Assembly (NCBI GenBank): GCA_001630475.1
Contig: KV419414.1
Span: forward strand, 435,664 to 499,663
Source: Sistotremastrum niveocremeum HHB9708
Taxonomy: Eukaryota > Basidiomycota > Agaricomycetes > Sistotremastrales > Sistotremastraceae
Direction: 5' to 3'
DNA length: 64,000 bases
The notes below the pieces were generated by a model. That model searched no databases. It was not told the origin of the DNA and saw only the letters and a program-made list of their open reading frames with translations. Made by a program: the position numbers and the translations under genes. This document shows positions 13,148 to 50,423 of the stretch, piece by piece. Each line of letters begins with the position of its first letter. Within the stretch, counting starts at the first letter, position 1.

Positions 13148-15599
13148 ATGTCGCCTCATCCTGAAGACGCTGAAGACTCCTCACAAGCGGACGACGAATA
13201 TGTGGACATGTTTGAATCTCCATTATTTCAAAAGCTACTGGCTTTGGCGGAGAAGCAAGCTGCTCACACTGAAACTCTGCAGAAGGAGGCTTTGAAAGGT
13301 GACGTCCCAATCGCTGTCATGATAACTTAGACGTCTAACGTTGAATTTATAGGCGAACAACCATTCACTAGGGCGAACTGGACGCACGAGCCGACCTGGG
13401 CTTCACTGTTCAAAACGGCGACTGGGAAAACTAAAGAGTTGACAGAGGAATGGATGGACGGGATGGATGCCACGTTGATCTTCGTATGTCATTTTGCAAG
13501 CCTGAGACCATCACTGACCAATTTCTAATCGTTGCCAGATTGCCCTATTCCTGACGGTAGTGACTGCATTTGTGGTCCCGGCCACGCAAGCATTGACGGC
13601 CTCCGCCTCTGGTAATACATCTCCGACTATCAATGTATCCAATGCTAGCAATGTCGTCATCCATATCAACCTTCAGAATGCCACCGAATCTGACTCTTCA
13701 TCGAAACCGCCCGTCCCTTCCAATTCCGCGCAAGTCGTTTGCCTGTTCTTCTACCTTGCCCTTGTGATCAGTGTTAGTGACTTTTCATTCCTCTGCAAAA
13801 TCTTCTGAATCCTTCGCACAGTTGTTGAACGCCGTAGTCTGCATTCTCGGCCGCCAATGGGCAAGAAGTCTGAATAAAACCCCCACGGGACAGTCTTTCC
13901 TCGAACGAACCATGAGGCATGAAGATAGGAAGGCCATGGCGAGGAAATGGCTCGAGCCTCTCATCAATTCACTCCACAGCTCCCTTTTCGCCTCCATCGC
14001 ATGCTTTATCGCCGGCTTTTTGTACCAGTTGTGGACAGTGGCGCACTCCTTCAGTGCTTGGGCCCCTGTCCTGGCTTTTACGAGCGCTTTAGGCACTTTC
14101 CTTTCCCTCTTTGTGATCGCCATAATCGGGCTCACCATATTTCATGCTGTGTTGCATGCCGAATCTCCGTTCGCGACTCCATTTACCAGAGCGATTCGTA
14201 GGCTGATCGCACCTTGGCGAAAAAGCCATGACAAATACGCCATATTCGAGGCACTCGGAACAGAACAGGAGAGGGACGCACCGGCAGCTATTCGTGCCCG
14301 CGATGAAGCATTGCAGCGAGGTTGCCAACTCGTCACCAATACGACGGAACCGGCTTTCCTCGAGGGCGCTTCTTCTACTTTCTTGGATAGTAATTGGGGC
14401 AGAACTTGGACGCCAGCGTTCTCCCTTGTGAACTGGATCAGCGCCATTTCCAGAATGTTGGCAACTGACACGTCGTTTCGCGCCAAAATCACTATCGCCA
14501 GTTTCTTGCCGAATTTCATCGGCTGGTTGCATTATCACAAGGTCACTGCCAACGTAGCCCCTTTCGTCGCCAACAGGATTGATATCCTTTGGTCTCTCAT
14601 CTATGACCTCTACAACGAAGTTTATAGGCTGAGCACGGAGCATGAGCAAACACTTTTCAAGGCCCTTGTCAGCGTGACATCCCTCTTCAAAGACAACGAA
14701 GACCTCTCTGAAACAGGCGAGCACGTTTATCAGGATGCCGTTGTGGAAGTTTTGTGTTCTTTTGACACGGATAACGTGGTGGGCGAACGTCGCGAGATCT
14801 TGCGTATAGCTCTGGAATCATTCGCGTCCCGAATCTCATCGAGTGACCAGTCTTTCCCTGAGGTTCTACGTTTCCGAATACTGCGAGCCATCCTCGCGCA
14901 GCCTTACTTCGAGTGGACTCGCTCGAATGTCGCCCCCGAGTTGATCAAGGGAAGAGAGCCCGCCGTCCTCCTGGCGCTCTCTAATTTCCTGTCCCACGTG
15001 CGACACCTAGGAAAGCTTGGGGATTATCTACATATCATCGAATTCCTCCAGTATATCTATCCGTCGGTATCTCACATACCAGCTTCAGCGGACCTTGACC
15101 TGTCCAGAATCCTGGAGCTCGCGTGTCGAGATGCGCATCCTAATAAGTGGGAGCAGTACAGCCATACACTGATGGACTGGATTGAGTATTGTGGCGTCGA
15201 TCATATTTCCGACAAGAGGTCCCTCTCCATGTTTCTTCATTTGTGTGCGCACCAGGAGTGGTTGGATGTCAGATTAGCGGGCATTTCTGGGTATCGGCAG
15301 GGTTCCACCGACGATATCACTCGAGAACGCGCTCGGGAGTATCTCTCGACGATCAGTGGTCTGTTTGTTTGTTTCCTCATGGCTTATCCTTTACTGATTG
15401 GGTTGCAGATCTGCCGGCCGTCAAATTGGAGGAGGTGATTGTCGGTGGGACGGATGTGGCAGTGGTAGTAGCTCCAGCACCTCCCTCCATTGCAGAAGTC
15501 AATAATGCTTCACCTTCGAAACGAGTGGCCATTCGACGCTGGCCATGGTTTTCAGAACGTACTGAACAGCCTGATCTGGAGGATCCAAAACGAGATTGA
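13148..15599 (+). CDS. DUF6535 membrane protein, copy 1
   Basis: Exons 13148-13298, 13353-13483, 13539-13772, 13822-15358 and 15409-15599 give 747 aa. A charged N-terminus is followed by an amphipathic helix (SPLFQKLLALAEKQ), then the DUF6535 core: TEEWMDGMDATLIFIALFLT, a Ser/Asn-rich loop after the first span, and LNAVVCILGRQWARSLN. The ERTMRHEDRKAMARKW block and two further spans (to ~14150) complete it. The remaining ~450 residues look like helical repeats. DUF6535 proteins are common in agaricomycetes and have no established function. ATG 13148 is the first ATG in frame. The five-exon plan with a fixed 131-nt exon 2 is shared with the next two genes, showing tandem duplication. Confidence 0.87.
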
Positions 15600-16003
15600 A
15601 GCTAGTTTTTGGATAGCAATTTGCGAAGCAAGTCCAATTCAGTTAGAATCCCTGGAGTAATCTTTCCTTGTATTCGTAACGCTCAAGAGAGGCACACATG
15701 TACCCTAATTATAATCGCGAAATCGTCGGAATTTAAATCCCGGCGCTCAATTTTCAGCATGACTTTCTTCGTCGACGTTTAATGTGAACACGATTCAGAC
15801 ACTCAACAGAGTATACACTATGGCCAGCCAGTTACGCAACTTATAAACCTGACGAGCCTCAAATGGTGACAGTAGTAGGCAAGGGCTGATTGTTATCGAA
15901 CATGAAACTGTGAGCGGACCCTATAAGCGCAGCCACAGCTATTTTATTTTGCGAACTAGTGCAGCCACCAGCGGGGTTCTCATCCTGTCTCACAGCAGCT
16001 TCC
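15600..16003. other. Spacer between DUF6535 copies 1 and 2
   Basis: 3' region of copy 1 and 5' region of copy 2. AT-rich; no ORF or RNA gene seen. Confidence 0.5.
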
Positions 16004-18463
16004 ATGTCTTCGTCCTCTGAAGACGATGCGGAAAGCCTGCTTGGGTCCTCGCTCGGTCGATCATTGATTGAGGTGCTGGAGAGGCAGAGCCGTCTCCTCG
16101 AAAAGCAGACAGCCTGTCTGGAAGCTTTGCAGAGAAACGTTTCGAAAGGTGAGGCTTTGGATTGATTGCTGTATCTATAGATTCTTAATGTCTGACAGAT
16201 GAATCGTCCGGTTCTGAGGCTCCTTGGCATGCTGAGTCTACTTGGGGTGCAATCTTTGAAACGGCCGTGTCAAGGACGCGAGAAATGACTGAGGAGTGGA
16301 AAGGCTTCATGGATGTTTCCCTGGTGTTTGTGAGTGCAGTGCCTAGGAAAAGAAAATCCATCGCTGATCCAACATAAGAGCGCCATCTTCCTAGCTGTTG
16401 TTACGGCTTTCCTGGTTCCTGCCAATCAAAGCCTGTCAACGACCTCTACTGATGCTACAAATACATCAGCAGCGAATCCCTCGAATGCTACGCTGGACTG
16501 CGCAAATGCGACATCTCCATCTCCTCCCGCCCCTTCTCGACCTATGCAGATGGTAAGCGCCCTGTACAGTTCGGCGTTCACAGTCAGCGTAAGTCTCCCT
16601 TCAGTGATCACAGGGAGTATCGCAGCTGATTTCTTTCCCTGTTCAGATACTCAATTCGGCTCTGTGCTTGCTTGCCAGGCAGTGGGTCAGCAAGCTAGTC
16701 AGTATACCTTCTGGCAAGACCAACCTTGAGCGCACCATGCGACATGAAGATCGAAAAAAGATGTCCGAACGCTGGTTACCACCCCTCGTATACATCCTAT
16801 ATGGCACTCTCCTCTGTTCAATTGGCCTCTTCGTATATGGATTTCTCCTGCAACAGCGACTGTTGTCAGAGTCGTTTGATGGGCCAGCTCCTGTCTTAAC
16901 CTTGGCAGAGGACTTCGCGATCGTATTATCGGTCTCCGTGTTGCTTCTGGTTCTAGCGACCATTGCTCATGCACTTTGCGTGAGAAATTCGCCATTCGAG
17001 GGACCGCTAACAGTAGCGCTGCTTTGCCTTCTAGAGCGTAAACGGGGTTCAGGGGATCGCTTCTCTGTCTTTGCTGAAGCTGGAAAGGTTTTGCTCAGTC
17101 CAGAAGCAAAAGAAGCCAGAGAAGAAGCCCTCATGAAATACGCTGAGTTGGTATCCGAAACCAAAGACCCTGAGGTGTTGGAACGCGTGGCGCCTTCACT
17201 AGTCTTCAAGGACTGGCTGGAGGTCGGTGATCTTCGACCTCTCCTCGAGACGACATTGCGGTTGCTGTCAAGCGACACATCCGCGCGCGTCAAAGCAATC
17301 GTGTTCGATCAAATTGTGAGCTTCAATAGCTGGTTGCAAGTTAACCTCGACCATCATACGGGAAGCTTGGTGCACTCTAGCCGCGCAGACATTATTCGGC
17401 GCTGGGAAACCTTTTATGATAGCGCCAAGGGATCTTCGATGCCACAGGAATACAGGGAACAATTCCTTCACGTCCTCGTCACCCTGACATCGTCACTGCC
17501 GGCTCATCGCGAACTCCGAAGCGTTAGCCAAGCCTCCTTCGGAGCAACAATTGCAAATATTTTGTGCATGTTCTCCCAGATAAGCGATCTCGGTCACCGA
17601 GGTTTCCTGTTCTGGGAAGCAGTGAAGGAATGTCGACGTTTGCTCCAGTCGCGAAAGACGGCCGAATTGAAGGCGCTTCTTGCATCTGTTAATCGCTCAC
17701 GGTTGCTTCGGTCGCTGGTTCGCAATCCAGCTTTCCCCTGGTGGAAAATCAACGACATCGGTACCGCTATCATCCAAGGCTCCGAATGGGAGATCCTCGA
17801 TGAGATGTCTGATTTCTTGACTGATCTACCCGAGCTCGAATTCTCAGCCCACTTCAACGTCCTAGAATTCCTGGTTGACCTGTCTAAAGGCCTACCTGCC
17901 GACTTTCACGTTCCCACGGAGCTCGATCTCTCGCGGATCGTCGGATTTTTGGCTCGTCATCCACGTGTTCGGAATTGGCGGGAGCAAAGTGACGCGATGA
18001 TGTTTTACTTGGACCATTGTGATATCTCGCAGCTTTCGGAAAGAACCTCTGTCTTTCAGTTCCTCAGACTTTGCACGGATCGACTACTTTTCTCTGAAGA
18101 GCCGCCTGAGAAACAGACTAGTCAGCATACTAGAGATCTGGCTGCATTTTATTTCCCAAACTTCACACGTACGGTTTTCCTCTGTTTTCCGTCTGTTGAG
18201 TGCTGATGTTTTTATTTTCATCAGGATTACCCAAATCTCAATCGTATGAGTCCAGCCTCGCAACCCCAGTCCGCCTTTTCGGAACTGGCAAGAATGCCAA
18301 GCTGTCGTCCAACCAAGATATCTCCTTTCCGCCTCCTGTTTTCCAAAAGCATGCGACATATCCTTGTCTGCGTCGTTCGAGTCGGTCCTTCCGCGACCTG
18401 AAGACCCCGTTCATCTCGTCTTCTCTCTTTATATCCTCGGCACCATCTGCGACGAGTACATAA
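16004..18463 (+). CDS. DUF6535 membrane protein, copy 2
   Basis: Exons 16004-16148, 16199-16329, 16379-16588, 16647-18168 and 18225-18463 give 748 aa. Layout matches copy 1: N-terminal helix (LIEVLERQSRLLEKQTACLE), exon 2 ending TEEWKGFMDVSLVF, a first span in AIFLAVVTAFLVPA, a loop, then LNSALCLLARQWVSKL, the ERTMRHEDRKKMSERW block and paired spans (LYGTLLCSIGLFVYGFLL and VLSVSVLLLVLATIAHAL). The long C-terminal region aligns along its length with the neighbouring copies but the last exon does not. Exon 3 follows an AAG acceptor. This copy has no internal stop. Confidence 0.87.
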
Positions 18464-18930
18464 CAATCTCCTGATTCATTCTCAACAGTACGAGATGCTC
18501 CTTCTAATACGGAAGAGAGTCCGCTGCCATTGCGGTTGGCCTAATAATATTCTCTGGATCTAATCTCGGTTTTCTTGGACCTCACTAGTATACAATGTAG
18601 AACTTTTCTCTGCGATACACCCACACACCAGCAATGCTCTGTCGTTGTTCTACATATCTTAGGTTTAGCGGAGTAATTATACGAGTCCCTCTTTCACTTC
18701 TCTTTCATTGAACTGCGGAAGTCACGAAGAGCTCGTCCAGCGAGCGCTCCCAGCAGGTCAACTGCAGGCTGCTAGTATATGTGTGACTATCACCTGCGCG
18801 ACCCTTCTTGGACCTTGATTCACGGTGGTGAAGTCAACGAGCCCATTATGGCCTCAGGAACGACCTCCAGGTCCAGACAGTGCCGAACGCCGCCTATTCT
18901 CGTTTCGCTGATGCCTCTTCCCCTCCTATC
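18464..18930. other. Spacer between DUF6535 copies 2 and 3
   Basis: 3' region of copy 2 and 5' region of copy 3. Frames here (18779-19009) are shadows of the copy-3 first exon or lack support. Confidence 0.5.
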
Positions 18931-21500
18931 ATGTCAGGAAAGCGCACCGTACCCGTACCCGATGAGCCACCAGATCCTTGCAACTCTCCCATATTCCAGA
19001 AGCTCATAGACTTGATTGAGAAGCAGAGCAATGTCTTAAAACGACAAGCTCGGTGTCTTGAGACTTTGGAGAAAAACGTATTGAAAGGTTCGTGTCGTAT
19101 CTCCTAAAGAACTGCCCTTGTTAATGGAATGCAACAGAGGAACAGCCTCATCCCGCGACTCCATGGCATGCAGAGTCGGGCTGGAGCGCCGTGTTTGAGG
19201 CAGCTGTGGCTAAGACAAGAGAGAAGACTGAGGAGTGGAAAGGATTTCTGGACGTGTCTCTGGTCTTCGTATGTGCTCGTTTCATCTGATATATAAGAGT
19301 TATACTGAAGGGCCAACTTGAAGACCGCCATTTTCCTCGCTGTAGTCACTTCCTTCCTTGTTCCCGCTGCTCAGGCACTGCAGCCTAACGATGGCGAGCA
19401 TCTTCTAACATTTCGTTGAAATCCATCGCAGCTCATTGCGATATCAGGGTCGTCGTCTTCTGCACCACCTGCACCACCTCCTGAATCGGCACAGACGATT
19501 TACGCGCTCTATTATCTTGCTTTGACCGTCAGTGTGAGTCTCCCCGGTTTAATTTACCAGAGCTGCCGCAATCCTAAGCGCGTTGCTCCACAGATTCTCA
19601 ACGCCGTCTTGTGCGTTCTTGGACGACAATGGATTGGGAAACTCAATAGCATTCCTGTCGGAAAGACGCATATCGAAAGAACGATGCGTCACGAAGAGCG
19701 AAAAGCACTCGCCTGGTCATGGCTGGCGCCTTTGATCTGGCTTCTATTCGGCACTCTCCTCTTAGCCATCTCATTGTTTGTGGTTGGATACCTGTACCAA
19801 CTACAGGTTTTATCCACTTCGTTTAGTGGTCCCACCCCTATCCTCCGAGCCGCGTGCATTATCGCGATCATCTTGGCTCTTTGTGTTCTGGTTCTTCTAG
19901 CGTTGACAGTCGTTCATGGCGTACTGGTCCCCAATTCGCCGTTCGAGGGACCTTTGTCCAAATCGCTGCTCTCGCTTATCCCTTCGAGAATGCGGAGATC
20001 CGACAGATTCACCATTCTTACCAGCAATAACAGAGATCGAGAATGGAAAGAAACTCGTACTGCGAGGGAAGAAGCAGTATCGACATATGCACGTCTTATC
20101 TCAGAAACCAACGACCCCAATCTCTTGGACCGAGCGGCGCCATCGCTCGTCTTCAAAGAGTGCATGTCATCCGCATCATTGCCTCACCTCATCGCGGCAA
20201 CTCGCCGCCTTCTCTCGACGGATACATCAATTCGGGTCAAGGCTACAGTTCGAACACAGTACGATGCATTCATTGGCTGGCTGCAGAATGATCCCGTCAT
20301 CCCCGTTCAACAGTCGAATGCTCTGTCCGTCGACGACGTTCGTGATATCATCCGCTGGAAGAACGAATGTAGCACTCTCCTACAAATCAAATCCGAGAGA
20401 ATCTGGTTCTCTCCCGTCAACGTTATCCTCACGTCGTTTCTCCCTCACAATAAGGATCTTCTTCCCATTGGCAGGCTCCCTTTTGAACAATGCATAGCGC
20501 GTGTTCTCTGCATATTCGACCAGAGCAGACGACTCGGCGATTGCGAAGACGTGCTCCGACACGCGATGGGACACTGTAACTGGCTTATCGCACATCAGAA
20601 GGTGGATGACGTCACACGAATTCTATCTCATGTCGACAGAAATTCCCTGCTTCGCTCTCTCATACGGAATACATGCCTTAACTGGCCTCTCATACGAGAC
20701 ATTGTCGGAATTCTTATTCAAGGTCGAGAGGAGGAGACTCTGGTAGAGATGGCTCCGTTCTTGACGGGTCTTCCCGACGTTGGACGTGTGTTTGGATCGT
20801 TTATCGTGGTTGACTTTCTGGAGGAGCTTGCACAACGTCTTGGATCCGATTTACGAACTCCAGCGGACATTGACTTCTCCAGGTTATGCATTCTCATCAT
20901 ACAGGAGTATTCCTCTACCACATGGACCAAGGAAGCTAGCATCGTGATGTTGTACCTTGAACATAGCGAAACGTCGCAGGTGGCGGACAAAGCGATTGCT
21001 CGGGACTTCTTTCGACTTTGCCTGCTTAGATCGGAAGAGGATTCCGTTGGGATCAGCTCCCTTCGGGTCCCATATTGTCTAGGAGAAAGAGCACAGTTCT
21101 ATCTATCATGTTTAACCGGTGCGTTATCTCTTGCTTTGTAGATGGAGACATAACCTCATATAATATGTCTTGCGATGACACTTTGTTCACAGAAATACCC
21201 TCTTCAGAAGAGGACCTACCTGGAGCTTGCGCTCATGCAGGAGGCCTTATGGCTGAGCCTACCGCCTTTTCGTATCTTGGACCAATCGTCGCATCAAGCT
21301 CACGAGATCCTCGAGTGTTCTGCAACATCGAAGCCTTGCCAGACTGGCGTAAGCCAAATACCAACACCTCGTCATCAAGCCGTGAACCCCACAGGCAACG
21401 CAGGTTCTTCTGGAGTCGTGATTATAGCGGTATTGCTCGTCGGGATGCGAACCTTGAGATGCATGGTCGCGATCCAGGATACTCTGACTCTAATGTATGA
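18931..21500 (+). pseudogene. DUF6535 membrane protein, copy 3, with in-frame TGA
   Basis: Exons 18931-19087, 19138-19268, 19324-19533, 19594-21118 and 21193-21500 follow the plan of copies 1 and 2, and exons 2 and 3 have the same length as in copy 2 (131 and 210 nt). Core motifs are intact: TEEWKGFLDVSLVF, FLAVVTSFLVPAAQAL, LNAVLCVLGRQWIGKL, ERTMRHEERKALAWSW. In exon 3 a TGA at 19417-19419 interrupts the loop after the first span, and the same frame continues cleanly to the donor. Rescue by an in-frame intron ending at 19431 would need a poor donor (GTTCCC or GTAGTC) and would delete part of the conserved span. The rest of the 777-codon frame is open, so inactivation would be recent. A sequencing error is also possible. 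Confidence 0.75.
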
Positions 21501-28341: not shown

Positions 28342-29365
28342 TTATGAATCGGAGCAAACCGGCCACTGTACAATAGGGATCCCCTTCGCTTGCAACTGAG
28401 AAGTGGTCTTCTTTTCCCAAACCCACTTATCATCTTCCTTATTCATAATTCCTGACACCCACATCGAGTTCTTTGGAACACTTCGATACACAACTCCATA
28501 TAACAAAGGGGCCTTCAGATCTTCCATCCATCGCTCGTGACTCACGACCTTTGGACTAAGGTCGTTCTTGTAGACATAATGCGCTGTTAGCCAGATGAAT
28601 TCGTGATCGAATCCAACTGAAAACAATCCGATGAGAGTGAGGTCCTCGAGAGGGATGATCATAGCAATGACTCACACACGCAGGGAACAAGAGCCACAAA
28701 CTTCGGATCCTTGATCCATTTCTTCTCCTCATTCTCCAACAAAGGATGGAATGCCTGTAATGCATGTGCGACCGCCTTCTCTGCTGGTGAATTTTCCTTG
28801 AAATAGGCTTTGTCCAGAATGAAAGCAGAGGACGGATTCCCGTCACTCTCTACTCGATAAGACAACTCGAAGAAGACGTGGTGGGTCTTCCAATGGAAAG
28901 GTTGGTCTGAGACATGTAATGCCGAAGCCAACGCTTTCACGATACTGTATCGGTGGAGCGTGTTCCAATCCTCGAGGATAAGTCGACGCTCTTGGATAGG
29001 TGGCTTGCCACACGTATGAAACGAGCTGTGGTGGTTGAGCGTCTCCAATGCCTTGTTGCTCCGTTGCTGCTGCTTGCAAAATGCCTTGTGAAGCGGCCAA
29101 AATGCCACTTGATGTTCTTTATTCTAGAAGATATGGAGATCAACGGACGGCTCGCGTGGATTTGGACGAGAAGGCTTACACAGAACCTCGCACTCTTGCA
29201 TCCGTTGCATAGGAAGAGAGGTGGATCTCCAGGTTTTCTATTGGCTTGGCAAAATGCACATCCTTCTGGAGTATTTTTGCTGATCATTATCTTCGCGCCG
29301 GGACCTGTGGCGGCGGTGTTGACTTTGAAAACGGTCCTCTGTGAGGAGGCTCTGAATTCGGGCAT
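28342..29365 (-). CDS. MYND-type zinc-finger protein, copy 1
   Basis: Three exons, 29365-29180, 29123-28676 and 28616-28342, give 302 aa. The finger is split by intron 1: exon 1 holds CAFC and CNGCKSARFC, exon 2 opens NKEHQVAFWPLHKAFC. Spacing matches MYND (C2-C2-C2-HC), but the sixth ligand, normally Cys, is His (NKEH). After the finger come ERRLILEDWNTLHRYSI, a block FELSYRVESDGNPSSAF and a C-terminal part with DHEFIWLTAHYVY and GVVYRSVP. MYND fingers usually bind proline-rich peptides; the rest of the protein has no recognised domain. The ORF ends 145 nt from the convergent lyase gene. Confidence 0.82.
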
Positions 29366-29887
29366 GATATAGAAGAAAGGTTGAGGAAACGCGAAGTTCT
29401 GAAGGTGGCAAGAAAGTGGAATGCAAGTGGCAAGTTTGGTCACGGTCCGTGACATGTCTCACATTTATTGACTTCATGCGCATAGAAACCCCGCTTGGTA
29501 CCCCGCAGTGGCCTAGCCATCGCATGTCCGATCGCGAGTCACAGCTCCTCCCTAGTCTTATTCGTGCTTGGGCCTGCGCGCTCCCGAGGCCGCTATTTAT
29601 GATATTCACTAAACAAACATTCGTACGCGAGCTAGATATTAGGAACCCCAACAGTGTTTCTCGATCTTGATTCTTGAAGACTGGTGTCGAGGCTTGATCT
29701 TCTGTGCTCCTCGACATAAAATTTGAACCGCTGCGCTAGCGTGATCGTCTCGGGCGGGCTGTGTGAGTCGGGGCTGGCTCTGGTGCAAATCTTCGTCTAA
29801 ACTCAAGACAAACTGTGCAGCCTCTCCTTGAGTAGTTCAGAACAGCCTGACTGCACCCGGCAATCTGGACGCCTTTCCGATAATCAG

Positions 29888-30921
29888 TCATCGGACAATG
29901 GCGCTGACATTGATGCCTTTCGCTTTCAAACTCTCCAAACTCTTCTCCTCCCAAACCCATTTGTTATCCTTCTTCTCGACAAACCCGGGGAGCCATACCG
30001 GACCATCCAGCGTACGACTCCGGACGCGATAGACCAGCCCGTGCATGACCAAAAATTTGAGCTCTTGAACCCAGTCATCGTGGTTTTGCGAAAGGTTAAG
30101 GTCACGCTTATAGCAGGGCTGACCAGTGATCCATCCATATTCGCGATCGAAGTGAACTATTACAAGAGTCAATGACACGGCTACAGCGATACGCTGAACG
30201 AATACGATCACTCACACAGGCAAGGGACAATTCCAATGTAATTCGAGTCCTTGGCATCACGTGAACGTCGCGAGGGGTTATCCAAGAGTTCAGAGATAGA
30301 ATCGAAGCCAGCCCGACTATTGGTGCCCACTGGTGGATTCTCGTTGATATAGGCGTCATCGAGTTCAAAGGCAGATGATGGATTCCCATCGCTGTCTTTC
30401 CGGTATGACAGGACAAACAGAACATGCTGATTCTTCCAATCGAATGGTTTCTCGGCGGTATGCAATGCCGAGGCACAAGCTTTGATAAGACTAAGCCGAT
30501 GCAGCTCGACCCAGTCCTCCACTATGAGTTTACGCTCCTGAACTGACGGGAAGCCGCTTTTAGTAAGTGAGCTTGTCGCATTGATCCTTGCTATAGCCTC
30601 TTGGTTCTTTATCTGCTGTTTGCAATATGATTTGTGCTCCGGCCAAAAAGCGACTTGATGTTCCTTATTCTGCCAGTGGTGAACGATCATCAGATCCTTA
30701 TAATATATATGTTTTAAAATAAAATGACTGACACAGAATCTGACACTTCTGCATCCGAGACACAAAGGTAGAGGCGGCTGTCCCTCTTTTCGAGGAGCTA
30801 GACAGTATGCACATCCTTCTGGTGTATTCTTGCTATACACCAATCCCGGCTTTGATCCCGATTTCGTCGCACTATTGATTTTAAAGATGGTCTTCTCTCC
30901 CGGACGACTGAGATCTGGCAT
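29888..30921 (-). CDS. MYND-type zinc-finger protein, copy 2
   Basis: Exons 30921-30733, 30669-30216 and 30156-29888 give 303 aa, with exactly the same intron positions and phases as copy 1. Intron 1 is 63 nt and in frame (GTCAGT...GGCAG), so read-through would insert 21 residues inside the finger. The finger is CAYC, CLGCRSVRFC, then NKEHQVAFWPEHKSYC, with the same His at the sixth ligand. The FVLSYRKDSDGNPSSAF block and the last-exon HFDREYGWI and GLVYRVRSR blocks align with copy 1. Copies 1 and 2 are the closest pair. Confidence 0.82.
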
Positions 30922-31524
30922 GACTCGTAAGATAAGGTGTAGAGTCAGGAAATTGATGATCGTGTGGACGAGTCGTAGGAGAGATACAAAGGCTCTCGAC
31001 AGCGTTAGCGCGCGTCATCAACGTGTTGTTCGGCGTTGACTTCTAATCGCCGAAATACTTCTGCTTTCCCAAAATGTTGAAGCCTTTGGCCTTTTCTCCA
31101 AGAGTCGATTTTCCAAGTCTTCTGTGCTTTTGCATGGAAATAAAATGTGCTTTATCGAATCCAATACAAGGAAAAAAGGGAGAAAAAAGCCATCCCGGGC
31201 CGAGATCGTGTGTCACTGCCAGTGAATGAATTCATTGGCACGATCTGCGGCACACTGGATTCGGATTCACGCTGGGGTTTCAACATAGGATATGTGGTGC
31301 TTGGAGCCTTATAATTGAGGGGGAGAGCTACTTTGACTATACTGTAAATTTGTGCCCAGCATTGGTCTAGTGAAAGTTCAAACAGGGAATATCACATTTT
31401 TTACGTTCTGTACATTCTACTAAACCGTTGCAGCATCTATATCAGCAAAAACATCCATAACGAATCAAAAGTCTCGGATGAATAGGGCGAAAGCCTTCAT
31501 ACCAAGTTTCCTCCAAATATCCTG
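30922..31524. other. Spacer between MYND copies 2 and 3
   Basis: No ORF or RNA feature seen. AT-rich. Confidence 0.5.
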
Positions 31525-32549
31525 TCAAGAGCTCCCGAGCAAGTCGACTCGGCGTAAAACAATTCCTATCGCAAGAAACTCCTCGACAGTTTTCCTCTCC
31601 CACTGCCATTTCTTGTCCTTCTTCGAGACTAAACCAACAGCCCACTCGCTGGCAGCCTGCGGATCGTTTCCTCTTACAAGTCTGTATACGAGACCATGCC
31701 TTACTGCGAATTGCAAGCGTTTCAGCCAACCATTATGAGCGAGGCTTGTGAGCACGTCCGTTTGGTAGACGTAGTGGGCAACGAGCCAACAGAATTCTCC
31801 ATCAATATGGACTATCGGTATATATCAGCGACTTAGGTTGCTGTAATAAACGTTCAAAGACCAACGACTTACACAAGCAAGGTATTACCGCCAGAGGGGG
31901 GATGCCACTCCATCTTTTCTCTTCCTCCTTCAATATAGAGTGAAGAGCTTCGAATCCCAAAGCGTTGGGTGTCCCCGATCGAGGCGTCTGTTTGATACAG
32001 ACTGAATTGATCTCAAAAGCACTAGATGGATTTCTTCGACTCTTCGGGCGATATGACAACTCGAATAGAAAGTAGTGAGTTGTCCAATCGATCGGTCCTC
32101 GGAGAGTTTGTAAGGCCGAAGCTAAGGCTTGTCGAATGCTGTATCGATGAAGGGTGTTCCAGTCTTCCAGGATAAGTCGACGCTCTCGGGCGTTTGGGAT
32201 TTGACGCTGATAGGGCATCGTTTCGAGGTGTTCTAAGAATCTATTCCCTCGTTGGACTTGTAAACAGAGTATTTCGTGAGTCGGCCAAAGGGCTTCCATG
32301 TGCTCGTCATTCTGAATATTTTCAGAGTGAGGTCCGAGACGATGAAGTAGACAGTCATAGACGTACGCAGACGTATGTGCTCCTGCAATCGAAACACATG
32401 ACAAGGTGGGGCATTTCAGGTATCTCGGTGGCGTGGCAGTAGGCACATTCTCTGGGGGAATTCTTGCTACACAAGCTGCCTGTGGACTTCATGAAATCGC
32501 TATTCTTGATGAAGACGGTCTTCTCGTCAGGATTGTTCGACAGGGACAT
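31525..32549 (-). CDS. MYND-type zinc-finger protein, copy 3
   Basis: Exons 32549-32367, 32311-31873 and 31811-31525 give 302 aa, the same structure as the two neighbours. The finger is CAYC, CFDCRSTYVC, then NDEHMEALWPTHEILC, again with His in place of the sixth Cys. Downstream are ERRLILEDWNTLHRYSI (identical to copy 1), FELSYRPKSRRNPSSAF and DGEFCWLVAHYVY. This is the most diverged copy in exon 1 and in the loop after the finger. A TATATAT string lies about 190 nt upstream on the minus strand. Confidence 0.8.
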
Positions 32550-41024: not shown

Positions 41025-42574
41025 ATGCCACGCCGTGGGCCTCCTTTGACGACTGCGGATGCTCAGAATCCGCCAGCCCATCTGAAGTACTTACAGAGAA
41101 CTCAGTCTAATCGTATGTCTGTCGTTCGGTCTCGCATCGCCACCTACTCAGCCTTTTCTCTTAGATGGTAGTCCTTTGCCTCCCCACAACGGCGGTAGTG
41201 GCATGGAAATCCCGCCGCTCATGATCCATGGTTCAGACAGAGAAGGAGGGTCCGGTGTTCATCAAGTGGGCGAAGAAATGTTCTGGGAAAGCTCTCCGAA
41301 TATCAATGTCAACCGTAAGTCACATAAGACTCGTCCACTCCATGCTACTCATCTGAACTTCTTTACTTCTTGAAGGCGCCGCACCATTCGAACGCGTCAG
41401 AGTGCCACCTCCACCACCTGCTCCCATAACACCGAGGATTCGTGCTCCTCCCAAATGGCCAGGAGAGACGGTCGGACAATGCCACGCCGTGACGGGGGGA
41501 GGCGGAGGTCCTCGATGCTCGAAACCAGCTTCAGGCGGGCTATATTGTGGACAACATTCTAGCATGCAAAGTCAGTATATAGGCTACCTCTTCCTTGTCT
41601 AGCACCTCTCATGATGTGTGACAGATGTCGTTTCCATTGCCACCGATCCCGAACGCGCCTCGCCAGCGGAGAATGCCCAATGTTATGGCCAAACTACTGC
41701 TTCAACCCGAACCAACCGAGTGAGATGCAAGATCAGGCCACCGGGTGGTAGAGGCATTGTCTACTGTCATTATCACGGGGATCAACGCGAAGATGATATG
41801 AGAAGATATCCGGATGATTTCGCGTCTGATGATGACGGACCTGCACCAGAGCCGGCGCAAGGTTCGGTACATGTCACCGCCCATGCTAGATATGACGGTG
41901 GACGAGCTCGATCGGAAATGCGTCCCAGACCGATTACGCCGTTGGATCGTCGCCCACCTTCTCCCGTCCCATCTTCCGCAGGATCGCTGCGTTCCGAAGA
42001 ACTCGAGGACTTTATCTCAGATTCTATCTCAGAGCCGGCCGAAGAAGACCAAGCCGATCTACTTCCTAACGACGAAGAGCTTGAGCGCTACAGCTCCTAT
42101 TCGTCTTTGCTCGTTGGCCTGTCTCTTCCTAGACGTTCGCTCCTGGAACTCGATTCCACTGCAAGCGACGTGGGCACAGAACGTGATGACTTCGTCACTG
42201 AAGCAGTTGACTTGAGTCTTTCCCGAGAGAGCGCTAGGGAGTCCTCTGCACCTCCAAGTCTTCCCATTGTGTCCGCTCAGATTACGGCCCAATCTCAGGA
42301 TGTCGAGGTCGCGAAGGATGCAATGTTCCCCGGTGCCTTCAGCGACATCATCACCCCTCAATGTTCGAAGTCGGGCCTTCGCGAACTCAACTTTATCTCT
42401 TGGCACAAGATCTTCGTCTTCATTCTGATGATGATCTTGGCCCTTTTCTTCACCGCTGATCCCACAACGCCCAATGGCATCTTGACAATCGATGCTGCCG
42501 AACAAAGTGATCGTATGATCATGGAACTCATTCAGAAAGGAGTGCAACTTGTGATGAATCACGTCAGAACTTAG
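41025..42574 (+). CDS. Zinc-module protein A, C-terminal membrane anchor
   Basis: Exons 41025-41112, 41165-41314, 41376-41570 and 41625-42574 give 460 aa. It carries two modules: QCHAVTGGGGGPRCSKP ... YCGQH, and QCYGQTTASTRTNRVRC ... VYCHYH. Both fit C-x(n)-[RK]-C-x(n)-[YF]-C-x2-H, so each could bind one zinc with three Cys and one His. An intron separates the two modules, as in genes B-D. Next comes a ~230-residue acidic, Ser/Pro-rich stretch and, near the end, a single hydrophobic span (KIFVFILMMILALFFTADP). No known function. The pattern resembles short Cys/His modules of bacterial proteins and of some GIY-YIG nuclease proteins, but no nuclease domain is present. Confidence 0.75.
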
Positions 42575-43674
42575 GAGCCGAAGATGGATGCACTCATCGA
42601 CTACTTTTTTTCTTGGACTTCTCGAAGACATGGTCGTATGCTGAAGGCATGACGAATGTCACTTCTCCAGTTTGCTTGACTCGAAGAGCCAAAGGGCTTC
42701 AGTATAGTTACACATGTATACGTAAAATATCTAGTTGCACTCTCCTTTCATAATAATAACTGCCATTCCTTATCTATCGTGTCGGAGCATCGAATCCATG
42801 AATACCTGAATACATGCTGCTGATGCTGTGCCCGTGCAACGCATCTGAGCAGCATCTCCGAAGTTCCGACCCAATCTGCTTCCGCTCCGTTGCTCCAACT
42901 GCCCCTCGACGCTCGTGCCGGACTACAAGGCACTTTCTGACGCGGCATCCTAAACCATAGGTTGACCCACCACATATGGAGCTCGTGCATGCATATCGGA
43001 CTGAGTCTCCTCTTCTTCAACGCCTTGGATTCGTTATTGTGCCCTGGCAGCGCGATCATCGGCTTCACCTCAGCACGACTGACATTGCAGGACGTTGTTA
43101 CGTGATAACGGAACCCCTTTAGAGAATACAAAGCCTTCAAGGCGCGGCGACCGGCCTGAGCTGGCGGCGGACGAAGCAAGAAGTTTACGACGGCGCACCC
43201 TCGTTAGTGAAAGGGGCCCGAGAAGACCGCTGCAAGTGGAATTTCCAATACCTGTCTCGACAATAAAGGGGACTCAACCTGCTTGTGACTCGAATGGGCT
43301 CATATATCCATCTAGAGCGCCATCGGTCCCGTCGACACGTCCGCTGCGTGTGCGATGTTTCGACGTCAGGAGCTGACCGGAGGCTGATCCCACCACTCTT
43401 GCTCCTTTTCACCTCAAGCTACACGCAAGAGCAGACCTTCGAAGCTGTATCGCTCCAGTCCCAGTCAGTGGCGTTCGTCGTTTCGTCCCGGGATCTCCCC
43501 ATCACGGCGGTACATCCGACTGCACCTGTTCGTGTCGTTTTGCAACGTCCGGAAGTCTTCTCGGCGCAATAACTCGGTTCAGTCCAAGGACGTTTCAGGA
43601 GCATCGGTCTCGTCGCCCGGAAATTTGAGTAGTGAGGACGCCGATCTATCCAGCCAACCCAGTACAAACCCGCG
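42575..43674. other. Spacer between zinc-module genes A and B
   Basis: Contains a 143-codon minus-strand frame (43179-42748) with Arg/Ser/Cys-rich composition and no splice support or motif; I do not call it a gene. Confidence 0.4.
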
Positions 43675-45214
43675 ATGAACGCGGCCGAAGGTCAATATAA
43701 TTTTTAAGACTGTGTCGATGATTATTCAAATCTTGTTTTTTCTCAGCTGCTTCAACTAACTCTGCTGAGTATGCCCAGCGTAAGAAGACAGAATGGCCAG
43801 AGGGTGAAAACCTTCGGTGTTATGCGATCAACGTTAGTAACGGTCTGCGTTGTGCTCGCGCATCTGGAGGTGGGGAATTTTGTTGGCAACACTATGGAAT
43901 GGGCGATCGTAAGTTTCAGTATATTTCCCTATGTTGGCCTTCTCTGACTCCTTTCCAGGCGCAGTCTCCTGCAAAGGCATGGCAGAATATGAGAACCTTG
44001 GCGGCAGTTCACAGTGCTATGGCGAAACTCTCGGGGGCTCAAGATGTTCCCGTCGGTTCGCTGTATACCAGAAGATTGTTTACTGCGACCAGCATGAAAA
44101 GCAGTACGACGACGACAGGATAAAGTTTCCCGATGACTTCCCTATGACTGTTCCCGTTTCGTCGGCCGTCAAGAAAGATTCGCCCGCCAATGTCGCGACA
44201 CAGGCTAGTCCCAGTACGATAGACGAGCCGCATCAAGCCTCCGTAGCGCCGTCCACTTCAACATCCATCGATCCCGCGGGGCCTGTGACTCCACCGACCA
44301 CTCCTAGTCGAGTAACACACGCTCCTGCGAGCAGCACGAAGAAAGGAGATGGTGAGATCACAACGGGTGGCGACCGCCTTTCATCCGTTAAGTCTACCGG
44401 AATTGCGACCCCTCCTCAAACACCTGCATCAAGGCGCAACCCGCCTTCGGAGCAAGTTCACCCGAAGAAACCTATCGTAGAACCGCCCAAATCAATCCAG
44501 ACCAGTGTTCAGGCTTCCAAGCCAGCGTCCCCGGTACTCCCTTCCCCTCCGCCCACTCCTCCCCGTACGCCGGTGATCGCGGATAGGTCCACTGTGTCAA
44601 ACGCGACCCCTGTGAAGAAAGAGGAGCTCATACACTCGTTGGCACCTGGAAGTCCTTTGTTCTTACCATCCAGCCCTTATGCTTCGTTATTCGGCATTGC
44701 TCCGAAGGCAGAGAAGGATGCAAAACGCGCATCACTTTTTGGTCCACGTCGAATGGAGACATCCAAGGACGTGAACATCGGACGCCAGTCGTTGCCACAG
44801 GGCAATACCGAACTCACGTCCAGCTTTACGTCGGGAAAGAATAGAAATATTCCCTTTGTTGCGACCAGAATTGGTCCCTCGGCTCCCACATTTTCGAAAC
44901 CGAGACCTTCAAATCCAAATGCAAAGCCAGTTTCTGGATGCTTGGATACTGTAGTATCTCCCGTTAAGACATTTGGCGACCATCTTCCGCTTCGTGTCCA
45001 CTGCAGAGAGCCAGACCCCTCAACACTCAGTGCAAGGGCTGAGGCAACTGAACACGGAGGACTGGCGAGGATGACGGCTGAAGATCTCGTGCTTGAAAGT
45101 ATGAATGCATGGGCCTTTCTTGCGAGCAAACTGTCTCGTATTCGTGAGTCGACGGGCAAGGCTGGATGGAGCCTGCTGGGACATTTGACGAAATCAAGCT
45201 CACCAAGATTTTAA
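43675..45214 (+). CDS. Zinc-module protein B, Pro-rich tail
   Basis: Exons 43675-43690 (16 nt), 43747-43908 and 43959-45214 give 477 aa, all in phase. Module 1 is RCYAINVSNGLRCARA ... EFCWQH, module 2 QCYGETLGGSRCSRRF ... VYCDQH, joined by a conserved linker (RAVSCKG). A KFPDDFP block after module 2 is shared with gene C. The long tail is rich in Thr-Pro pairs (ATPPQTPASR, PPPTPPRTP), candidate proline-directed kinase sites. It also holds two LFG motifs (SLFGIAP, SLFGPRR). Near the C-terminus RMTAEDLVLESMNAWA matches gene C almost exactly. Lacks the membrane anchor of A and D. Confidence 0.75.
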
Positions 45215-46266
45215 AACGTATGGCATCTTATCATCTCCGAGCTTTTGAATCCACGCCTGACTCTTGTCTTGTCTTTTCCTCCACCTGGTTCTTTCTTCTA
45301 CCTCGTTGACCAATCTCAAAGTTGGACTTGGGATCCCGGTGACTACTGGTAGACAAGTAGTAAGACGATGCCTCCTTTTCGCAATCACTCTTGAGTATGG
45401 TCCAGAATAATGATTCGATAATTTACTATTCTTTCTGAAAATAAAACCCCTCGTTGAAGCTATTACCAATGATTCTGCATTCCTTCTGCGATGATACTGC
45501 GGATTGGTCAGGCTACCCGATTTTTTTGGAATGATTCGAGTCCGGCCTCCTTTGGTCTGAGCTCCGAATTCCGAATTTGCTTCCACTCAGTGTCCTCTGC
45601 AACACTCAGAGAAACCCTAGGGCCGACTCTGCCATGCCGTCTCCCAGAATCTCTATTGGAAATGAGCAGCCTTGTATCTCTGCTCCGTCCGTCTGCGAGC
45701 TGCGGGCTGATATCCCTCCCTCTTGGACACTCCAAATCGTCAGTTAAAGTCTGCACTGGTGATGCAGCGAGACCTCCACTACCTGGAAAGTTGCACCGTG
45801 CTTAATGCACGTCGGTCCTCAACAACTGAGATTCGTTGGAGCGTATGAATTGTGGGAGATCGTCACTATAGACTCAGCCATTGATCGACGCCGCAAAGTC
45901 TCCGGCAAAGGTGCCACCCTCGCTAGGAAAAGAGGCTCGGCAAAAATGCCACAGATGCAAGACCCGATGCTTATCTGCAATACAAAGAGGAACAACTTCA
46001 TCGTGACTCGAAAACCCTCATATTTGTCTCTTTGGTTGCTGGTCCCGTTGGCACGTCAATAGTGAGTGAGCCACTTCCTTATCTCTGCATTCGGCGACTT
46101 ATAATCTGGGTCGTAGAGTCTCGCGTGATTGTTCACTCTCTTCCTGACTTCATCCTACAAGCTCGGACCTCTCAAGAACGTGCCGCCCATATCCCACTCA
46201 GACGCGTTCGTCTTCGTACTAGGAATATACCCCCCTCTTTTTCGGTACATCCCAACACACTCGATC
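45215..46266. other. Spacer between zinc-module genes B and C
   Basis: Overlapping frames on both strands (45491-45805 plus, 45756-45508 minus) cancel out; neither has a motif or splice partner. Confidence 0.4.
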
Positions 46267-48173
46267 ATGTCGCGCGGCACTACCTCGAATACCTCTCAAT
46301 CCAAGGAACTTATCTATGATACCGACGGATTCATTCATTTTGAGGAAAAGATAAGAATTCCACGTATGTCGCATCTCACCACCTCGACCGTCCTTTATCC
46401 GACCTTCGCTGCCACAGCCACAGCCACTTCCAAATCCAAAGCCAAGTTTAGTGGCAGCAACAATAAGGCCATTGAGAGGACTTGCGAAGATTTGGTGCGC
46501 AGCTGGGAAAGCGACAGTGACTTCAGCAGTGACGATGATGACTCGCCTTCCAGTTGGCAGTCCGTGGGAAGCGTCGCTGAAGGTGAATCTCGATACTGTT
46601 CACCGAATTTTGGGACTGAATTTTGCTAGTTGTTCACAGTCCGCCTGCTCCAATAAAGAAGACGAAATGGCCGGGAGAAACGAACACTCAGTGTTACGCG
46701 CTCAATGGGGGTGTTGGTCCACGGTGCTCGCGTGCAGCTGACTCCGGGGAATTTTGTTGGCAACATGACGGGATGGGCAGTCGTGAGTTTCACTGCTACT
46801 CAATACGTGTACATTATCTAATGCCATTCCCAGGAGCGGTCTCCTGCAAAGGCAAGCCAGGCTATAGTGGGCATTGTGGCAGCACACAGTGTTATGGCAC
46901 AACAGGCTGGGGCTCAAGATGTGAACGCCGATTTGCCACAAGCGAGAGGATTACCTATTGCTGGCAGCATGAAAGGCAGTCTCACCAGGACAGACTTGCC
47001 TTCCCAGGTGACTTCCCTGATATTGCCCCAGTCCGGCCGGCGATTAAGGCGGCTTCAGCAGGCGAAGTCGTCGTGCAGGCGAGCTGCAAGAAAGCGGACT
47101 CACATCATGAACGCTCGTTAGCTTCGTCCAACGCAATCACCACCAAGCCCATGCTCCCTGCGACTCCGCCAGCCACGCCTCTTTCCAAATCTAGTTCTGC
47201 CTTGAGTGTGACGAAGATTGAAGCGAGTCACACTAAATCCCGTCGCGAACAGTTTTCAACTATCGAATCTTCCGTGTTCGCTTCACCTCCTCCTACACCT
47301 CCTCCGTCAGTTCACAAGGAACCTTTGAAGAAGACCCAGAAGAAGAAATTGAGATCGGGCCAGACTAGTGATCGAACCACCAAGGAGACTCCAAAAGTTC
47401 GTCTCCCCCCTCCCTCGCCCATCTCGCCGGTTGGAAACAAATCCTCTGCGGTTAACGTCTTCATTGTAAAGACGGACAACATCAACATTTCGTTGGGCTC
47501 ACAAAGCCCATCCTCGTCGATCCCTGGCCCTCTGTTTGGTGGCACAGCGATTGGAAATGACGTCCGCCCGAGAGCGAAAGAAGTGCAAGCGAAATCGCCC
47601 TTCGACTTTAGTGACTTGAAACCGTCGACAGCAGTGAATCTAGGTTTCACATGGTCAGTTCCTCAGAATATCAAACCGACGAATGCGTCCACGAACATCT
47701 TCACTTTCGGAAAGGTCAAAGACGAATCTACGTCGACCCCTACAGGCTTTCCAGCCTTCACGTTCTCCGGGTCGAATCCTCTCGTTTCGAAGCCCGTCTT
47801 TGGATCTACGGACGGGACAGTCTTTCAAACTAAGGCCAATAAGAAGCAACCAAAACTGCCTGTTAAAACCGAGCAGACAAGTTCGGCATTGCCCTCGGAC
47901 ACTCCCTCTGCTCCTTCTCCCATGAAAGTGAAGGAAGCCGGGACGGAAGCTCAGGTCAAGGTCAAATCGACAACTAACCACAAAGAGAGGAGGATGACGG
48001 CCGAAGAACTGGCTCTCGAAAGCATGAATGCTTGGGCATCTGTCTCATCCACATCGTCTCGCGACTCAGCCGGCAAATCTATATCGAGCACTCCCGAAAG
48101 TTCGGAGAAGTCAAGCTCGGCCTTCGTTCTCAATGAAAAAGATCTCGAATTTCTTGAAACGTACGTCATTTAA
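46267..48173 (+). CDS. Zinc-module protein C, FG-containing tail
   Basis: Exons 46267-46363, 46418-46582, 46630-46782 and 46834-48173 give 584 aa. An acidic N-terminus (SDSDFSSDDDD) precedes module 1, QCYALNGGVGPRCSRA ... EFCWQH, and module 2, QCYGTTGWGSRCERRF ... TYCWQH. The tail repeats Phe-Gly and Phe-x-Phe motifs (PLFGGTA, IFTFGKV, PAFTFSGSNP, KPVFGSTDG) spaced by Ser/Thr/Pro/Lys, like FG nucleoporins. Near the end RMTAEELALESMNAWA is shared with gene B, then KDLEFLETYVI. Intron 1 (54 nt) is in frame, so retention is possible. Confidence 0.75.
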
Positions 48174-49168
48174 ATCACAGTATCCAGGTCTGATTCTGAC
48201 TGTCGTCCTGTCTTTTCTCCTGTGTGGCGCTTGGCACTCTTTGGGGTCGATCTCAAAGTTCGGCCTGGGCTTCCAAAGACTAATAGTGTTCCAGTCAAAA
48301 GGAGGCTTCCCCAAGTTTACAGACTGAGCTAGAGACAAAATTTTCAACTAATTTTATGATTTATTGATACTCTATCCTGATGCAGCGATAACCTATAGCA
48401 GACCTGTTGATATTGATACCTACTGTCCCTTCTGGATAAGTCCTTCCCTAGTTATTTATCGTACTGTTCGGCTTCCTGTACGGCCTACAAACATACATTC
48501 CATTTTCTATACGACTTTTCAGCTTCAGCTTCGGTAACCAGTGGATGATGACGCATCTGGATTGTCTGCTTCCGAGCCGCTGCCTGGTCAAGGTCAACCG
48601 GCCAAGTTCCTAAACGCTGCAACATTCTCTGCTCATCCCTGGTTGATCCTCGATGCTGAATTGGTTCCAGAAAATTTGACTAGGCATCACTGAACTCTTT
48701 GCGACGCGCCCGGCTTCCATTTATACCTACCAGTGTCTCGTACCGCGGACCAGTTGCAACATCGGAATCCAGTCCAGCCGCTATAGACTTTCGGCCAAAA
48801 AATACCATTTAATCCATCACAACTTACTGATCAGGCCTAAACATCAAGACATACCGGTTTCTGGCAACAGAATGGAGAAGAGTTCGTTCGCAGCTGACTG
48901 GCCTCGTGGCAGACCCTAACGGTGTGAGGAGCGCTCTGGATAAGGCAGCATCTCACGGCATGCGTGAATCCAGTTAAAGCCTTATTTGATCCAGAGACTG
49001 AGCACGCCGAACCTTGTCCACGCTGCAGGAGTTGATGCACTGATCGCCACCCCTATCATTTCATTGGCTCTGTGCTAAAATCTCTGTGCGACCAGTGATT
49101 TCCCCTTCCCCGGTTCTCCTTTCAGAATCTGTGCCTTCTGTGCATGTTCGGTCTCTCCTAAAGTCATC
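48174..49168. other. Spacer before zinc-module gene D
   Basis: No confident gene. If gene D has an upstream first exon, as A and C do, it should lie here; a Cys-rich frame ending at the D start (ICAFCACSVSPKVIM, from ~49127) follows a CTTTCAG acceptor. Confidence 0.4.
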
Positions 49169-50423
49169 ATGAGCTGTAAGGCCGTCAATCTGAAAAGTAC
49201 CCCGTGCCAAAGATCTTCCAGCGAATCGGGATTTTGCTGGCAGCATGAAGGCGAGTCCACGAGTGCAGGTCTGTCCCGACTCCCTACCTTCCTCTCGTTG
49301 TGTTCATCCTAACCTCATTTCGTTCCAAGAAACGTCTTCCGCTGCACCGCAAATTCGTCATGAAGAACCTTCTCAGGTCACATGTGAGACTCTGATCGCT
49401 GCCGAAGAAGATCTCTCGGCCCCCGATAGAGAGGGAGAGGTTTCCGAGGAGCCTGCCGACGATGCTGACCGCAATAGTGAGTCTAGAAATCCCTCGCTAC
49501 ATTTTTCAAAGTATATAATGTGCCTCGAGGTCTGACTGTATTGGACACCGCCCACGACGAGCAGGAAGGTCCTGCTGGGCAGACCAACGTCGCAATCCCT
49601 GCAACGAATGAAAATGCGACCACCGAATGGATGGAGGAGACGAATAAGCAATGCTCTGCCGTCACCTTATTTGGGACAAGGTGCATCCGCGCGTGCAATT
49701 CACAAAGCTATTGTTGGCAGCACGAAAGAAAGAGCACCAGTGAGTTCTTCAATATGCCTGACGCCATGTCATCCTCACTGACGAGACCTACAAGGCGTAG
49801 TCTCTATCACCGATAGTCCGAGATATGCGCATCTCGCGCCGAGCGTCCAATGCTCAGGCACGACTCTCAAAGGCAACAGATGCTTGATCAGACTCAAGCC
49901 TGACAGCCAAGGAACCGGATACTGTCACCATCATCGACGCGAGACCGTCATCGCACCAAATCCTCCGATGTCCTCCGTGGACGTGGCTATCGACGCGACC
50001 AGAGATATCACGACTGTCGATGTTGGCTCGCGAGTTGAGGAAAGCATCCCCGCACCTGCTCAGCCTACTCAGGTGGCAGTCGCTAAAGGTACAATATCCT
50101 GTCAATATCTTATATCATTGCTGAATCCCCTTGTTAAAGGCCCTACCATTCTGATACTGGACGACACGGATAGTGAAGGCGAAGAGGAGACTGCTGTTGC
50201 AACACTAGCCCCAAAACTATTCGAACGCGGAGACAACATGGCGTATTACTACGCGCTCATTCTATTCATCTCGACCTTACTATCTATGTTCTTTACGGCG
50301 AACAAAGCAGCTTCCATCAGTATCTCTCAGATCGACGGACCCATCAAAGGATGGACCTTCCAAAACGCCATTTGGGCCGAGATCTGCAAGCGTGTTCAAT
50401 TTGCCTGGGAATACGCCTTTTGA
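49169..50423 (+). CDS. Zinc-module protein D, three modules, SIM-like motif and membrane anchor
   Basis: Exons 49169-49268, 49330-49476, 49530-49739, 49795-50088 and 50140-50423 give 344 aa from ATG 49169. There are three modules: SCKAVNLKSTPCQRS ... FCWQH, QCSAVTLFGTRCIRA ... SYCWQH, and QCSGTTLKGNRCLIR ... YCHHH. After the third, ILILDDTDSEGEEE fits a SUMO-interacting motif (hydrophobic core then acidic residues). The C-terminal half has one membrane span (YYYALILFISTLLSMFFTA) like that of gene A. Intron 4 (51 nt) is in frame. The true start may be further upstream, because the frame stays open into a preceding acceptor. Confidence 0.7.

Follow-up and report, generated by a model that had tools for sequence, protein, structure and literature searches.

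Four tandem genes (A to D) in region 41025..50423 of the analysed DNA of Sistotremastrum niveocremeum HHB9708 (a stretch of 64,000 nucleotides (nt) of contig KV419414.1, referred to below as the window), together with a fifth gene (E) on another contig, encode proteins built on a short module with three cysteines and one histidine (Cys-Cys-Cys-His). This module is of a known but uncharacterised kind, and the fungal genes present it in a new setting, i.e. in pairs and, in several of the proteins, together with an apparent membrane anchor. As judged by profile comparisons, it is already catalogued, without a function, both in Pfam (family DUF5763) and as the module at the N-terminus of the halophile protein GvpO. 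The explanation that we consider rather probable is that A to E form a non-enzymatic adaptor family, in which paired, zinc-stabilised interaction modules would be carried by scaffolds, some of them membrane-anchored.

Four tandem genes with nine Cys-Cys-Cys-His modules

The outer coordinates of region 41025..50423 are those of the start codon of gene A and the stop codon of gene D. A six-frame scan of the window with a loose pattern detected nine complete modules, on the plus strand only, between positions 41480 and 49934 (starts at 41480, 41681, 43818, 44015, 46692, 46890, 49175, 49652 and 49851; module D-M0 also appears in the output with longer, overlapping starts). The pattern given in a preliminary description of this DNA, slightly widened, matched the window nine times and none of 60 shuffles that preserved the dinucleotides; with a more permissive form there were 10 matches in the window and a mean of 0.017 per shuffle. 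The sole other place found in the loose scan (30724-30813, minus strand) is Cys-rich and differs from the modules in its make-up.

Gene models were predicted from the DNA, with short GT-AG introns and one open frame per gene. The genes, the modules (M0 to M2) and the introns separating M1 from M2 are as follows (aa, amino acids):

41025..42574, plus strand: gene A; exons 41025-41112, 41165-41314, 41376-41570 and 41625-42574; open spliced model of 460 aa
41480..41557, plus strand: module A-M1; C-x11-C-x9-C-x2-H; matches NF045806 (expect value, E, 2.2e-7) and DUF5763 (E 9e-4)
41571..41624, plus strand: A-M1/A-M2 intron, phase 1; GT-AG, joins the frames
41681..41776, plus strand: module A-M2; C-x14-C-x12-C-x2-H, the longest first spacer among the nine
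43675..45214, plus strand: gene B; exons 43675-43690, 43747-43908 and 43959-45214; 477 aa
43818..43892, plus strand: module B-M1
43909..43958, plus strand: B-M1/B-M2 intron, phase 1
44015..44095, plus strand: module B-M2
46267..48173, plus strand: gene C; exons 46267-46363, 46418-46582, 46630-46782 and 46834-48173; 584 aa
46692..46766, plus strand: module C-M1; its 42-aa region matches GvpO-annotated proteins (tblastn)
46783..46833, plus strand: C-M1/C-M2 intron, phase 1; 51 nt, in frame, stop-free
46890..46970, plus strand: module C-M2
49169..50423, plus strand: gene D; exons 49169-49268, 49330-49476, 49530-49739, 49795-50088 and 50140-50423; 344 aa
49175..49246, plus strand: module D-M0, at the extreme N-terminus of D
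49652..49723, plus strand: module D-M1
49740..49794, plus strand: D-M1/D-M2 intron, phase 1
49851..49934, plus strand: module D-M2; the last D exon, used as a query, leads to gene E on contig C9

The M1-M2 pair is present in all four proteins, and a third module (M0) occurs in D alone. In A the pair is followed by an acidic middle part and a C-terminal hydrophobic segment, and D has the same layout behind M0 and the pair. The pair is followed in B by a Pro/Ser-rich tail with the RMTAEDLVLESMNAWA stretch, and in C by a long Pro/Ser-rich tail with the RRMTAEELALESMNAWA stretch; a hydrophobic segment is absent from the simplest models of both. The first intron of gene C is in frame and possibly retained, which would give a protein of 602 aa. 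Gene D contains two further introns between M0 and M1, and the weakest splice site of all the models is its acceptor at 49529 (CTCGAG). The M1-M2 intron is in phase 1 and occupies an identical position in all four genes, just before a [VA]-V-S-[IC] stretch.

The three cysteines and the histidine are invariant in the nine modules, which are 24-32 residues long. The first spacer comprises 9 residues in five modules, 10 in two, and 11 and 14 in one each; the second comprises 9 in five, 12 in three and 13 in one, and exactly 10 in none. CWQH is the most frequent ending (5/9). The net charge of the module core lies between 0 and +3 in eight cases, and reaches +6 in A-M2. The ligand positions of the modules account for most of the cysteines of the proteins (6/7 in A, 6/9 in B, 6/10 in C and 9/12 in D). 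Each module is predicted to bind one zinc, because the ligands are invariant in these nine modules and in the two of gene E, and because the cysteines are concentrated in the modules.

In a four-protein BLASTP comparison with filters off, all six pairs of A to D aligned (E 1e-12 to 1e-78), and by these alignments the genes are paralogues. B and C resemble each other most (60% for the modules and 37% for the tails). The simplest history, read from the sequences, would be that an already doubled module was copied along with its gene. The preliminary description of four tandem plus-strand genes with nine modules, ending most often in CWQH and separated by an intron in every gene, is thus borne out; to this, the present analysis adds the arrangement in M1-M2 pairs, gene E, and the hydrophobic segment near the C-terminus of A and of D.

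A fifth gene at a second locus

The genome searched comprises 34.7 Mb in 111 contigs. The last exon of gene D, used as a genome query, matched contig C9 (E 0.007), where the following gene was identified:

contig C9, about 458037-459036 (locus coordinates L033:1359-2358): gene E; M1, phase-1 intron, M2, acidic tail, C-terminal hydrophobic segment

Two complete modules can be read from the DNA of gene E, CAIIGGRKRCSHGAIDGILCGKH and CSAMTKQNARCSNTIPEGSQKAYCRVH, both of which keep all four ligands. The sole frame-joining intron in the examined stretch is of 55 nt, is in phase 1 and lies at the point that matches the introns of A to D; it is followed by VTLITDDPKYEHI, the counterpart of which in D is VVSITDSPRYAHL. 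With gene E, the family comprises no fewer than five genes, distributed over two loci.

Additional copies may exist elsewhere in the genome. Gene E as a query matched itself, D and weak places on contigs C7 (E 0.11) and C16 (E 0.55), and the last A exon matched itself and B. The models DUF5763 and NF045806 and the C exon frame, used as queries, gave weak extra places on contigs C4, C1, C40 and C14, none of the four with a complete module; searches with the family models are insensitive, as DUF5763 recovered two and NF045806 six of the nine known modules, and gene E was missed.

Relationship of the module to DUF5763 and the N-terminus of GvpO

In a Pfam scan of the four spliced proteins (E <= 1), DUF5763 (PF19067) was the sole family found, in agreement with the earlier statement that no enzymatic domain is present. 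Whole protein D matches it in three stretches with 42.3 bits (E 5e-11; cut-off 26.3 bits). Seven of the nine single modules match DUF5763 at E <= 1 (best 6.5e-5), and eight match the NCBIfam model NF045806 (GvpO_arch_Nterm) at E <= 10 (best 7.2e-10). The latter is an equivalog model, the 52-bit cut-off of which was not reached, the best score being 38 bits (C exon frame). Nine module shuffles that kept the Cys and His residues matched no NCBIfam model at E <= 10. The likeness to short bacterial Cys/His modules, noticed from the start, is thus substantiated. As to whether the module is a named domain, it does bear names, and these have no known function attached.

A tblastn search of 72,556 plasmids with the 42-aa C-M1 region yielded five records, three of them GvpO-annotated (E 0.03, 1 and 4); the best match, to a Halobaculum halobium protein, showed 59% identity over 27 residues. 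The search with D-M1 likewise yielded five records, of which three had gas-vesicle annotations and one was a Bacteroides protein (E 10). From the eight different plasmid records (E 0.03 to 10), five modules (four haloarchaeal, one from Bacteroides) made up the prokaryotic set; the records outside it are from Halorientalis (a complete module is absent from the listed frames), Rhodococcus and Aeromonas.

In a profile-profile comparison with the five prokaryotic modules, fungal M1 gave E 3.7e-14 (50% identity) and M2 gave E 1.3e-7, and the nine-module fungal profile scored the five at 36.5-41.1 bits; these values are optimistic, since the five had been picked with the fungal modules. The Pfam and NCBIfam results are free of this selection bias. 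None of 1000 decoys that kept the Cys and His residues reached the score of its parent, the best of them scoring 25.7 bits (997 of 1005 sequences were scored). The similarity therefore exceeds the ligands themselves, because shuffles that keep these lose the match. DUF5763 was also compared with three prokaryotic proteins: it gave 49.1 bits for the N-terminus of a true GvpO, 31.2 for a GvpO-labelled protein, and 19.7 (below the cut-off) for the Bacteroides protein. Since the true GvpO passes the DUF5763 cut-off, DUF5763 and the GvpO N-terminus are one kind of module, and on these comparisons the fungal modules are related to the prokaryotic ones.

DUF5763, NF045806 and the fungal modules have the core C-x-[AG]-x-T ... 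[RP]-C-x-R ... [YF]-C-x-Q-H in common. The fungal modules differ in that they are paired and split by an intron, with a longer second spacer in M2, and in that they are joined to a tail, either hydrophobic or long and Pro/Ser-rich, and not to a GvpO domain, which was not detected in any of the four spliced proteins (Pfam, E <= 1). In a tree of the nine fungal and five prokaryotic modules, the M2 copies grouped together in 68% of bootstrap trees, the M1 copies did not cluster, D-M1 was weakly placed among the M2 copies, and none of the 11 inner branches was well supported.

The Halobaculum halobium protein (P0001), annotated as 'gas vesicle protein GvpO, halophile-type' (NZ_CP126160.1, 95358-96119; also locus coordinates L024:980-1741 and L031:7359-8120), belongs to a BREX locus, in which its gene is flanked by brxL and by a gene with a PglZ domain. 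Its N-terminal module is the one matched by C-M1; unlike the fungal proteins, it is archaeal and has a single DUF5763 module, behind which lies a C19orf12-like segment (E 6.8e-5, under the cut-off). A GvpO domain is absent from it at E <= 1, and the GvpO label is probably wrong. In the Bacteroides ovatus plasmid protein (L028:713-1207), the start resembles a signal peptide (by eye); a DUF5763-like module that ends in YCWQH and a PBCV basic adaptor-like end are also present, both below the cut-off.

A literature search retrieved no paper on DUF5763, also in combination with basidiomycete zinc fingers, nor on the HGGxSTG motif, and for a fungal zinc finger with CX9CX10CX2H it returned only a plant paper. 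In the available part of PMC9372576, zinc is mentioned once, for GvpC, and neither a cysteine nor a GvpO module is referred to; passages of PMC5906684 offered nothing pertinent. Among PHROGs, one unnamed family matched three of the nine modules (best E 0.053). Two matches in PDB (best E 0.082) were at chance level, and three Rhodococcus phages found by tblastn (E 9) were likewise taken as chance.

Tails and hydrophobic segments

The C-terminal segment of A has a mean hydropathy of 2.19 over 19 residues (402-420) and is followed by 40 residues; the values are 1.78 over residues 284-302, then 42 residues, for D, and 2.33 over 19 residues, then 33 residues, for E. The tails of A and E align over their entire end (score 78), as do those of D and E (score 51), and in neither case was any of 2000 shuffles as good. 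The A-E alignment follows the pattern FPGA-[FY] ... DIIT ... hydrophobic ... LI-x-KGVQ. As far as these alignments show, the tails of A, D and E are conserved, and gene E strengthens the membrane part of our explanation. The same three proteins are acidic (net charge -15 for A, -21 for D and -29 for the long E exon).

Proteins B and C are basic (+13 and +15), and their long tails are rich in Pro, Ser and Thr. The MTAEELALESMNAWA-type (MTAEE) stretch is identical in B and C at 14 of 16 residues (rate of non-synonymous substitution, dN, 0.05). The simplest models make it probable that both proteins are soluble. A last exon with a hydrophobic segment was sought for both genes; several frame-joining introns were found, none of which combined a good donor with a transmembrane-like product. 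Downstream of the B and C stop codons (45215-45330 and 48174-48290), the DNA is still alignable, which may reflect a conserved 3' untranslated region or a missed last exon. FG dipeptides number three in each of B and C (0.9 and 1.4 expected), which was considered too weak for a nucleoporin-like reading.

Proposed function and alternative explanations

In the adaptor explanation, M1 and M2 would each be held by one zinc, bound through the Cys-Cys-Cys-His ligands, and would present a partner, presumably a protein and not a nucleic acid, with a small rigid surface. In the acidic proteins A, D and E, the C-terminal segment, which resembles a tail anchor, would hold the modules at the cytosolic side of a membrane; this anchored form is probably ancestral. 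The basic proteins B and C would act as soluble scaffolds, in which a short conserved stretch is combined with long tails of disordered appearance.

Several observations weigh against this explanation, in addition to the optimistic scores noted above. DUF5763 scores are below the 26.3-bit cut-off for A (18.6) and C (12.5), and B is unmatched at E <= 1. The case for a membrane location consists of hydropathy and tail similarity, and the tails of A and D, taken by themselves, align weakly (none of 2000 shuffles as good with a shorter cut, 2 of 2000 with a longer one). In gene C, the stop codon is followed by a hydrophobic reading frame, perhaps a last exon that the model lacks. A run rich in lysine in protein C, KKTQKKKLR (noticed by eye and not caught by a pattern scan), might act as a nuclear signal, and the A-M2 core is basic. 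Finally, modelling with a structure predictor, as had been proposed, provided two AlphaFold2 models, the confidence of which is too low to help (mean predicted local distance difference test scores of 59.8 and 46.6).

It is also conceivable, although in our opinion unlikely, that the modules are nucleic-acid-binding fingers similar to plant HRT, EFFECTOR OF TRANSCRIPTION (ET) and GRF WRC modules, and that the proteins are regulators of transcription or chromatin, with A, D and E tethered to a membrane. The plant modules also have three Cys and one His in nearly equal spacing; CX9CX10CX2H is described for WRC, a DNA-binding domain, and C-X8-9-C-X10-C-X2-H for HRT (passages of PMC7380329 and PMC9323871), and the ET repeats, variable in number, are reported to bind zinc and DNA (passages of PMC6585611). 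The first fungal spacer is of 9 or 10 residues in seven of nine modules and the second ranges from 9 to 13, the A-M2 core is basic, and so are B and C, the latter with its lysine-rich run. However, the second spacer is never exactly the 10 residues that the plant spacing requires. The WRC profile (PF08879) matched none of the nine modules at E <= 1 and none of five at E <= 10, and the four places that it found in the fungus' own genome all lie outside the A-D locus. Moreover, eight of nine cores have a low charge, and A, D and E are acidic with hydrophobic tails. A protein-binding adaptor is preferred because WRC is unmatched, because of these low-charge cores, and because of the hydrophobic tails in three of the five proteins.

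The A-D proteins lack GIY-YIG, T5orf172 and QLQ domains (Pfam, E <= 1), T5orf172 was not detected in the genome at E <= 1, and a lone GIY-YIG domain on contig C5 has no Cys-Cys-Cys-His module within the surrounding 3.2 kb; the suggested link to GIY-YIG-associated fingers was not seen. Zf_WRKY19 (PF24906) gave a sub-threshold match to two of nine modules (best E 0.0021), which covered only the last module half among the matches listed, and the spliced proteins were unmatched by it at E <= 1.

We consider it quite unlikely that the match to prokaryotic modules reflects convergence of small Cys/His modules and that the family is a fungal invention. The modules are short, their single scores lie under the curated cut-offs, and the module tree is poorly supported. 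In viral and prokaryotic collections, too, scans with module patterns led to no confirmed relative (74 and 41 matches in two scans of viral_contigs, 23 in one scan of genome_contigs, none confirmed). Nevertheless, protein D passes the DUF5763 cut-off, and the loss of similarity in shuffles that keep the Cys and His residues argues for a relationship beyond the ligands.

Selection was estimated from the ratio of non-synonymous to synonymous substitution rates (dN/dS). Three of the six A-D pairs were tried; A-C and A-D yielded no usable dS, and the estimate comes from B-C alone. It was 0.30 (NG86) and 0.32 (YN00) for the modules, with dS of about 1, and 0.36 (NG86) and 0.79 (YN00) for the tails. 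The module values point to purifying selection and not to diversification, contrary to what had been suggested for the cluster. It is very unlikely that the module is a mere structural zinc clip and that the selected function resides in the tails and the short MTAEE stretch, since the B and C modules are better conserved than the tails and all five genes have the M1-M2 pair in common, even though the long Pro/Ser/Thr-rich tails contain this nearly identical stretch, and the tails of A, D and E show a conservation of their own.

Other features of the window

The neighbours of the cluster in the window include DUF6535, tyrosinase, isocitrate lyase and Zn2Cys6 factor genes, which, like the short introns, give the genome a fungal appearance. 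On the plus strand, three long frames (13768-21141) appear to be tandem DUF6535 genes, the first of which was confirmed with Pfam and the others recognised by eye. On the minus strand, region 28659-32488 contains several neighbouring and seemingly related Cys-rich frames, which we presume to be of MYND-type likeness; the one frame that was scanned gave no Pfam match at E <= 0.01.

Significance of the family

A long shot, which we put forward as speculation, is that the module represents an old membrane-associated zinc adaptor common to archaea (GvpO and the BREX-locus protein), bacteria and fungi, which has been doubled here, and that the anchored A, D and E and the released B and C assemble as receptor and scaffold. 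Irrespective of this idea, the uncharacterised prokaryotic DUF5763 and GvpO N-terminal module is now linked to a multi-copy fungal family. The latter offers a eukaryotic system for genetic tests of the role of the module, with paired modules and paralogues that are probably anchored in some cases and soluble in others. Should the module prove to be a binding unit that depends on zinc, this interpretation could also be tried on the N-terminus of GvpO and on similar proteins encoded near defence genes.

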